Origin: Bacillus marasmi
GTDB lineage: Bacteria; Bacillota; Bacilli; Bacillales; Cytobacillaceae
Length of the DNA: 64,000 nucleotides
Reading direction: 5' to 3'
Assembly (NCBI RefSeq): GCF_902168435.1
Contig: NZ_LR656176.1
Coordinates: forward strand, 1 to 64,000
A program made the position numbers and the translations under genes. Under the pieces are notes generated by a model. The model was not told the DNA's origin. It saw only the letters and a list, made by a program, of their open reading frames with translations, and ran no database searches. This document shows, one piece after another, positions 35,054 through 36,650 of this stretch. Within the stretch, counting starts at the first letter, position 1. Each line of letters begins with the position of its first letter.

Positions 35054-35153
35054 TTGCTGGCTCCTTTATTACTGAATTTATTATGTAAAGTTAGTCAGAA
35101 AAAATTGATATTCATAAGTAAAAATGGCTCAGGAATATTCTGAGCCCTACTAA

Positions 35154-35852
35154 TTATTTTTTTGGGATTTCACATCCGTCGTCATCACAGACTGCTCCGT
35201 CCGCGTTATTCAGAATGGTAATCTCATCCTCTGCGATAATTTTACGCAATGCCTCGATAAACATTTCAGCAGGTTGGGCACCAGTAATGGCGTATTTTTT
35301 ATTTATTAGAAAGAAAGGCACACCCGTAACACCGTATTGTTTAGCAGTTTGCTCATCATGACGAACCACTTCAGACATCTCATCACTCTCGAGCATCTTT
35401 TCCACAGCTTCATGGTCCAAACCAACTTCTACCGCCAATGCAGTTAATGTTTCGTGGTCGCCAATGTGTTTAGATTCAATAAAATGGGCACGTAAAATTC
35501 GTTCTGTCATTTCCTTCATCAAACCGTGTGTATTCGCATACATCGTCAGACGGTGAGCATCGAAGGTGTTAGTTAATATTAATGTATCCATTTGGTAGTC
35601 CAAGCCAATTTCGTTTGCCATTTGGACCAGTCTTTGATTATTTGCCTTTGCTTGCTCAACACTCATTCCATACTTTTTGGCAATTGCTTCATGAATGTTT
35701 TCTTTTATATCTTTCCCAATTGTTGGATCCAATTCGAAGCATCTATAGGTCACCTCAATCGGATGGTCAATTTGCTTAATAGCGTCCTCCAGACGCCTTT
35801 TGCCAATGTAGCAAAATGGTCACGCAAAATCAGTCCACATTTCAATATGCAC
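35154..35852 (-). CDS. DsbA/FrnE-family oxidoreductase with in-frame TGA at the first active-site Cys (candidate selenoprotein)
   Basis: A thioredoxin-fold, DsbA-like protein of the FrnE (YwbO) group. From GTG 35852 (7 bases after AGGGGG) the frame reads VHIEMWTDFA-TGA-PFCYIGKRR and continues without another stop to 35154, 232 residues if TGA is read through. The family has CPFC here, so TGA (35822-35820) replaces the nucleophilic Cys, the position where selenocysteine occurs in redox selenoproteins (U-P-F-C). Later family features are intact: FELDP, GVTGVPFFLINKKYAITGAQP. A GC-rich hairpin follows the TGA. A conventional reading would give only 199 residues from 35753, without the active site. 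Alternatives: a Cys-to-stop mutation or a base error. Confidence 0.75.
35782..35796 (-). promoter_or_regulatory. SECIS-like hairpin after the TGA
   Basis: GCGTC-TGGAG-GACGC on the minus strand forms a 5-pair stem with a 5-base loop whose second and third bases are G. The loop starts 29 bases after the in-frame TGA, within the range I recall for bacterial SECIS elements (about 16-37), which want a G at the first or second loop position. A second small stem (TTTTGC with GCAAAA) lies between. The codons here also encode a conserved protein stretch, so chance pairing is possible. Confidence 0.45.
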
Positions 35853-36065
35853 AAGTATACCCCCTAGTCGTTATTCTTATATAGTATAGGGGGAACACTG
35901 AAAATTTACACGTGATTTGACTTGAAAAGAAATCCACATACCTTTCTGTGCTTAATCATTAATAACACCCCAAACATTGCTAAAATGGTAAAATACTAAC
36001 ACTAGAAAATTGGGAGGCAATAATGAACCATTTATTAATGTTGATTGAACAGAAATAGGGGAGTT

Positions 36066-36650
36066 TTAATTATCTTTTTTTATGGATGAAACTAAAATAA
36101 CAAGTCCACCTTTTTCGCCATGATCCCACATTTTGACCCATGGATTTGTATCTTTCGGAAGGTAAAAAACTCTCTGTTCTAATGGTTGAATTGGCGCCAT
36201 ATCACATTTTGTGCCATGAGTTTCTGTAGCAGGATGAATAATCACTTTTCTATTAGTATCATTGATATAGACGAATTTTGTCGTTACTCCCTCTAATAGA
36301 TTTACTCTCTGTTCGAGATGTTTTATCTTTTCCTGGTGCTCTATTAGTTGGTCCCTTAATTCTTCATAAGCACTATTGTTAGAACGATTTGTTGATGGCT
36401 GCCGTCTCAAATCTGTTCCATCAGGATAAGAGAATACAATTTTCATGTTCTTTTCCATGACATTCTCCACAGTTTCAGAAATCAAGGTTAAATATCGTTC
36501 TTCTAACCAATCAGCTTGAAATTCATTTTGTGTTTTAACAATTAATTCATCGTCACTTAGTTCAGCTGATGTATTTTTAAGCCAAGTCTCAAAACTTGGT
36601 CTACCAATTTTTTGTTTAATTTGATCTAAAACTTCATTCCATTGTTCCAT
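36066..36650 (-). CDS. Stand-alone DnaA N-terminal-domain protein
   Basis: A 194-residue protein. Residues 1-70 match the DnaA domain I fold: a start WNEVLDQIKQKIGRPSFETWLKNT, then VKTQNEFQADWLEERYLTLI. In DnaA this domain mediates self-assembly and helicase or SirA contacts. A linker (about 80-92) and a short coiled coil (about 93-120, YEELRDQLIEHQEKIKHLEQR region) follow, then an unassigned beta-rich C-terminal domain (about 122-194). There is no AAA+ or DNA-binding domain. It could modulate DnaA or be a separate factor using the same interaction fold. Monocistronic. Confidence 0.75.
   Translation of the reverse strand: MEQWNEVLDQIKQKIGRPSFETWLKNTSAELSDDELIVKTQNEFQADWLEERYLTLISETVENVMEKNMKIVFSYPDGTDLRRQPSTNRSNNSAYEELRDQLIEHQEKIKHLEQRVNLLEGVTTKFVYINDTNRKVIIHPATETHGTKCDMAPIQPLEQRVFYLPKDTNPWVKMWDHGEKGGLVILVSSIKKDN

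Follow-up and report, generated by a model that had tools for sequence, protein, structure and literature searches.

The window, that is, the whole 64,000-nucleotide stretch of Bacillus marasmi DNA analysed here, carries on its reverse strand a gene that runs from a GTG start (35852-35850) through an in-frame TGA to a TAA at 35156-35154 (Table 1). When the TGA is counted as one residue, the predicted product has 232 residues and begins with VHIEMWTDFA-U-PFCYIGKRR; the context of the TGA is FA-U-PFCYIGKRRLEDA. A preliminary description of this DNA had stated that the frame is the same on either side of the TGA, that the rest of the gene is intact and that a good GTG start with an AGGGGG site precedes it, all of which was confirmed. 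A separate reading frame at 36066-36650 on the same strand encodes a 194-residue protein with the N-terminal domain of DnaA (PF11638, 7e-16), for which no match to the ATPase domain was found in Pfam. In 81 stretches (the window and 80 related loci, some of them cut by a contig end), no neighbour recurs in more than 12, leaving aside ORFs that overlap the gene, and the surroundings therefore offer no hint of an operon.

Table 1. Features of the predicted selenoprotein gene, with positions in the window and the basis of each assignment.
Feature	Positions	Strand	Basis
Shine-Dalgarno-like AGGGGG, 7-nt spacer to GTG	35860..35865	-	read directly from the sequence
FrnE-type (DsbA family) thiol-disulfide oxidoreductase gene, predicted Sec at U11PFC14	35154..35852	-	PF01323, match to D. 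radiodurans FrnE, predicted fold
In-frame TGA, codon 11, proposed Sec codon	35820..35822	-	TGA in 138/167 loci read
UPFC redox motif (U11, C14)	35811..35822	-	sequence; residue 11 immediately precedes helix 12-26 in the model
Possible additional helix immediately 3' of the TGA (UUUUGCUA...UGGCAAAA)	35798..35816	-	frozen TGC and GGC codons
bSECIS apical hairpin GCGTC-TGGAG-GACGC	35782..35796	-	fit to published model, conservation, covariation
C-terminal C-x4-C motif CDDDGC	35172..35189	-	sequence; C-x4-C also in relatives
Intrinsic-terminator-like hairpin 3' of the gene	35126..35146	-	1 found vs 0.6 expected in shuffles

The family of the product was established by domain, structure and fold. 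The DSBA domain (PF01323) extends over residues 3-202 (2.6e-44, Pfam), and the best solved structures are those of FrnE from Deinococcus radiodurans (5cnw and relatives), which match residues 2-231 with an E value of 1.3e-50. In the sequence alignment with 5cnw, CPWC lies opposite UPFC, and the C-terminal Cys pairs are aligned as well. The predicted model has a mean pLDDT of 89.9, its last ~20 residues being poorly defined, and the PDB entry closest to it in fold is, once more, 5cnw (E 2.7e-23, TM 0.88). In this model the protein starts directly with the first strand, and residue 11 is located just before the helix formed by residues 12-26. The properties of the FrnE subfamily (COG2761, cd03024) can thus be recognised: a DSBA domain with a full-length sequence and fold match to the FrnE structure; the N-terminal CxxC, here in the form U11-P-F-C14 with Sec predicted to replace the first Cys; and the C-terminal CxxxxC of many members, present as CDDDGC. 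The assignment to COG2761 was reached through FrnE (DR0659 frnE is assigned to this COG, PMC1978522). Six NCBIfam models were listed for the protein and none scored above its own cut-off. Since the TGA aligns with a conserved functional Cys of the homologues, namely the first Cys of CPFC, the position that the preliminary description had given it was borne out in a FrnE/COG2761-type protein of the DsbA family.

The genome from which the window derives (4.64 Mb, 46 contigs) was searched for the Sec machinery, as the preliminary description had proposed, and all of its parts were found. The selA (562 bits), selB (361 bits) and selD (392 bits) genes were matched above the curated cut-offs, and a tRNA-Sec with the anticodon TCA is present, so that this cell has what it needs to read UGA as Sec. 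Three further loci of this genome (L010, L158 and L162) are selD and two formate dehydrogenase-type genes. The selD gene contains an in-frame TGA of its own with a hairpin behind it, and the same arrangement, in this case with a GGTCT loop in the hairpin, occurs both in a formate dehydrogenase gene (match above the cut-off) and in a formate-dehydrogenase-like gene (match below it).

The preliminary description had also pointed to a hairpin, GCGTC-TGGAG-GACGC, 24 bases after the TGA with G second in the loop. This hairpin was found as described: the stem, made up of GCGTC (35796-35792) and GACGC (35786-35782), begins at the 24th base after the TGA, and the loop TGGAG (35791-35787) has G at its second and third positions. 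The published bSECIS model calls for a loop of 3-9 nt that has a G at one of its first two positions, an upper stem of 4-16 bp and a spacing of 16-37 nt (PMC13188914). The hairpin in the window, with a 5-nt loop that lies 28 nt after the UGA and a 5-bp stem, agrees with this model. To estimate how often such a hairpin arises by chance, all TGAs on both strands of the window were inspected for at least five Watson-Crick pairs, at least three of them G-C, and a loop of 3-9 nt that lies 16-37 nt after the TGA and has a G among its first two bases; a comparable hairpin was found at 35 of 2626 TGAs, or 1.3%. By itself, the folding energy stands out only mildly (z -1.8 for 59 nt), and an Rfam search of 35650-35900 gave no hit for a SECIS up to an E value of 10. 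The strong evidence for the hairpin is its conservation and covariation rather than its stability.

Conservation of the codon was examined in several collections. GTDB genomes were scanned; of 123 pattern matches, 105 were relatives and 80 were kept. TGA occupies the codon in 80/80 of the loci kept, which answers the suggestion in the preliminary description that homologues be aligned at this place. By their titles, the loci come from Neobacillus, Mesobacillus, Peribacillus, Cytobacillus, Fictibacillus, Rossellomorea, Planomicrobium, Planococcus, Aquibacillus, Salipaludibacillus and Halalkalibacter, among others. The gene was also found on two contigs recorded as Pseudomonas sp. ISL-84 and Chryseobacterium sp. 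ISL-80, where its product is 74 and 73% identical to that of the window; these record names are probably wrong. Because the scan favours close relatives, genomes were also sampled without this bias. TGA was present at the codon in 21 of 61 relatives and, among the matches listed for 299 genomes of the order, in 41, all at an identity of at least 57%. One relative (G060) has TGT at the active-site codon and a TGA elsewhere, and six rows of lower identity in the order sample that contain a TGA proved to have TGT or TGC at the codon in five cases and TGA in one (G068, discussed below). In a sample of 299 genomes of the phylum, nine were matched at E <= 1e-55, five of them outside the order, and no TGA was seen besides that of the window. 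The Sec form is the sole match in the window's own genome at E <= 0.001.

The selA gene was detected above the cut-off in 47 of the 61 relatives and 139 of the 299 order genomes, and in every TGA carrier of both samples (21/21 and 41/41). The hypergeometric probability of this association, which ignores kinship, is 0.001 for the relatives and 6e-16 for the order. Over all 167 loci read, which pool two collections and include some genes twice, the codon is TGA in 138 and TGT or TGC in 29. The 137 TGA rows compared below represent 117 distinct sequences, and the 29 Cys rows represent 28. These counts are not independent events, as the relatives share descent.

All five pairs of the hairpin stem are formed in 131 of the 137 TGA rows and four in the other 6, and the loop begins with TGGA in 137/137. 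Among the distinct TGA sequences, five pairs are formed in 112/117 and four in 5, with TGGA in 117/117. Among the Cys rows, five pairs are found in 1/29 and TGGA in 7/29. The middle pair of the stem is made by codons 20 and 23, which in the TGA rows read CGT/GAC (106), CAT/GAT (18) or CGT/GAT (6, a G-U pair); the rest are CGT/GAG (4) and CGT/GGC (3), and CAT/GAC was never found. GAC makes up 32-37% of the Asp codons elsewhere, in both groups. The change from CGT to CAT replaces Arg by His, which indicates that the pair in the RNA is kept while the protein changes. Given the shared descent of the relatives, this double change may reflect few events. A shuffle test of covariation was performed on 34 rows picked by hand from 101 TGA rows, covering two helices and using 500 shuffles as well as slid versions of the helices. 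The numbers of paired cells and of double-change cells and the covariation score all beat the slid versions and 500/500 shuffles. Two other measures do not stand out: 105/500 shuffles reach the observed count of doubly changed pairs (2), and 329/500 reach that of pair types (7).

Several codons within the element are frozen. CTG is used in 137/137 TGA rows, CGT in 119/119 rows with Arg, TGC in 137/137 and GGC in 133/136 rows with Gly; elsewhere in the same genes, CTG accounts for 13% of the Leu codons, and the corresponding values are 31% for CGT, 41% for TGC and 27% for GGC. The frozen TGC and GGC codons fall in the possible further helix directly after the TGA. No compensatory change was observed in this helix, and pairs at three places in it are broken in 8, 3 and 3 of the 34 rows. 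A composite SECIS that includes this helix is for these reasons only a suggestion.

Comparison with the window gave a pN/pS of 0.045 for codons 2-10 and of 0.20 for codons 12-60 (135 comparisons, simple counting without gaps), and these low values before and after the TGA indicate selection at the protein level on both sides. The preliminary description had raised the possibility that close relatives carry further disabling mutations. In the TGA clade, every one of the 137 rows is open for at least 197 codons. G304, which belongs to the 41 order genomes with TGA, has a TAG after 217 codons, within the matched stretch. Separately, a Cys-form FrnE in another genome (L188 in G081) has a stop after 122 codons and is apparently broken. 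Of 145 distinct proteins with 180 or more residues, 94 (27 Cys and 67 TGA, the TGA rows being thinned at 85% identity) were included in a tree. In this tree, 66 of the 67 TGA rows form one clade with a support of 100/100. Two changes between Cys and TGA are needed in all, and the second concerns one gene, that of G068.

The preliminary description regarded a single-base change from Cys to stop, or a sequencing error, as the main alternative, in which case the locus would be a plain pseudogene of a Cys-FrnE. TGT or TGC does turn into TGA by one base change, and in one gene of the Cys clade (L182 of G068) a TGA does stand alone, with no typical SECIS. This explanation is contradicted by the TGA in 80/80 kept loci, by selA in 41/41 carriers of the order sample, by the covarying hairpin and by the protein-level constraint on either side of the TGA; it was rejected, and its probability is considered negligible. 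The mechanical ORF lister reports 35154..35753, which would fit a TGA that closes a 10-residue leader and a 199-residue protein that starts internally, for instance at GTG 35753. Such a product would be devoid of the UPFC motif and of the first strand and helix of the predicted model. It is also at odds with the constraint on codons 2-10 and 12-60 and with the aligned Cys homologues, which read straight through the same place without interruption. An internal start was therefore rejected as highly improbable.

Readthrough by near-cognate tRNAs is a known phenomenon, so the UGA might be passed by another route, with another amino acid inserted and the hairpin acting merely as a stimulator. The place of the TGA at the catalytic Cys and the occurrence of selA in 41/41 carriers of the order sample argue against this, as does an element that fits the bSECIS model in its 5-bp stem, its G in the loop and its distance of 28 nt from the UGA to the loop (PMC13188914). 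This route was likewise rejected and is given very little credence. With these alternatives set aside, the gene very probably encodes a selenocysteine-containing FrnE with a DsbA fold and Sec as the nucleophilic first residue of the active site (UPFC). This prediction, which upholds the preliminary reading of a selenocysteine-containing DsbA/FrnE oxidoreductase, is based on the conserved TGA, the Sec machinery, the covarying SECIS, the selection at the protein level on both sides, and the family as judged from the sequence and fold matches.

The gene of G068 (L182/L198, contig C32:45317-46024) is a FrnE gene of the Cys clade that has TGA at the same active-site codon. At the place that corresponds to the hairpin, L182 has 2/5 pairs and a TAGAA loop, and no typical GG-loop hairpin is present; the genome has selA. 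Of 25 other genomes around G068, 16 were matched at E <= 1e-60, 14 of them without a TGA inside the gene and 2 (G055 and G039) in the main clade. The gene of G068 illustrates how an isolated TGA appears; it may be due to an error, to loss of function of the gene, or to a recent, independent change from Cys to Sec.

If the predicted Sec is inserted, the UGA would be decoded by SelB with Sec-tRNA(UCA), aided by the hairpin that begins 24 nt further on. By analogy with Cys-FrnE, the selenolate of Sec-11 would attack substrate disulfides or oxidised thiols, and C14 would resolve the mixed selenosulfide. In proteins that have the C-terminal C-x4-C pair, it probably assists in regenerating the active site. 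Beyond residue 200, a C-x4-C is found in 114/137 TGA rows and 25/29 Cys rows; the 23 TGA rows that do not have it are therefore presumably recycled in some other way. The enzyme is probably cytoplasmic, and the same analogy suggests that it acts under oxidative or disulfide stress.

When the TGA is read as a stop, a gene caller will cut the gene, as the ORF lister did with its start at 35753. Together with the absence of any NCBIfam model that reaches its cut-off, this suggests that a redox enzyme may be missing from, or called broken in, the annotations of many bacilli. The clade also offers naturally occurring Sec and Cys versions of a single enzyme, for which structures of the Cys version have been solved, and the long-standing question of what is gained by Sec over Cys can therefore be tested directly. 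In addition, it provides a SECIS that has undergone compensatory changes within conserved coding sequence. A wider interpretation can be offered only tentatively, and it is more doubtful than not: that the Bacillales Sec-FrnE is an undescribed, order-wide clade with a composite SECIS (a helix after the UGA, the frozen TGC and GGC, then the GG-loop hairpin), that FrnE is selenium-dependent in many bacilli, and that G068 may represent a second, nascent change from Cys to Sec.

The UxxC arrangement, which the preliminary description called a known pattern of redox selenoproteins, has indeed been in print for DsbA/COG2761 proteins since 2005, when Zhang and Gladyshev reported DsbA-like UxxC proteins of COG2761 in nine Sargasso Sea sequences (PMC1088965). 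Four DsbA-like Sec sequences from genomes followed in 2006 (PMC1794560), then 63, 18 and 5 GOS sequences of DsbA 1, 2 and 3 in 2008 (PMC2398784) and 45 sequences from 41 organisms in 2016 (PMC5029168). Two DsbA-like UxxC selenoproteins have been described in Asgard archaea (PMC11227280), and the UxxC form of PF01323 is listed in reviews from 2022 and 2026 (PMC9312934, PMC13188914). In the main-text passages and tables of the published accounts of this family, no Bacillales member is named; the accessible text of the 2026 review (PMC13188914) contains no word beginning with 'Bacill', and a literature search of article listings and passages found no description of a Bacillales FrnE selenoprotein. 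A table from 2006 counts three families and three selenoproteins for Bacillales (PMC1794560), and since their names are not given there, one of them might be DsbA-like and already counted. Because the UxxC proteins of DsbA/COG2761 have long been in print, the Bacillales Sec-FrnE is to be seen as a new member or lineage of the DsbA-like selenoproteins.

Among the systems already known, D. radiodurans FrnE (DR_0659; PDB 5cnw and others) resembles the window protein over its full length in both sequence and fold, but has Cys where Sec is predicted here (CPWC vs UPFC). It was proposed to be a disulfide reductase in which the C-terminal CxxxxC aids regeneration of the active site, and disruption of its gene made the bacterium more sensitive to both cadmium and diamide (PMC8945050). 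The Cys-FrnE proteins of the same order (29 rows, 43-55% identical to the window protein) share the CPFC frame, whereas their codon is TGT or TGC, the hairpin is not conserved and they form a separate clade. Listeria Lmo1059, a DsbA-family protein, can be likened to the window protein by its described CPFC motif alone (PMC10715225). The published DsbA-like UxxC family, likened here by domain and motif, has the PF01323 domain, COG2761, UxxC and a bSECIS with G in the apical loop, and both the domain and the UxxC motif were found in the window protein. Taken together, the Bacillales Sec-FrnE looks like a widespread, little-noticed branch of a known kind of selenium protein.
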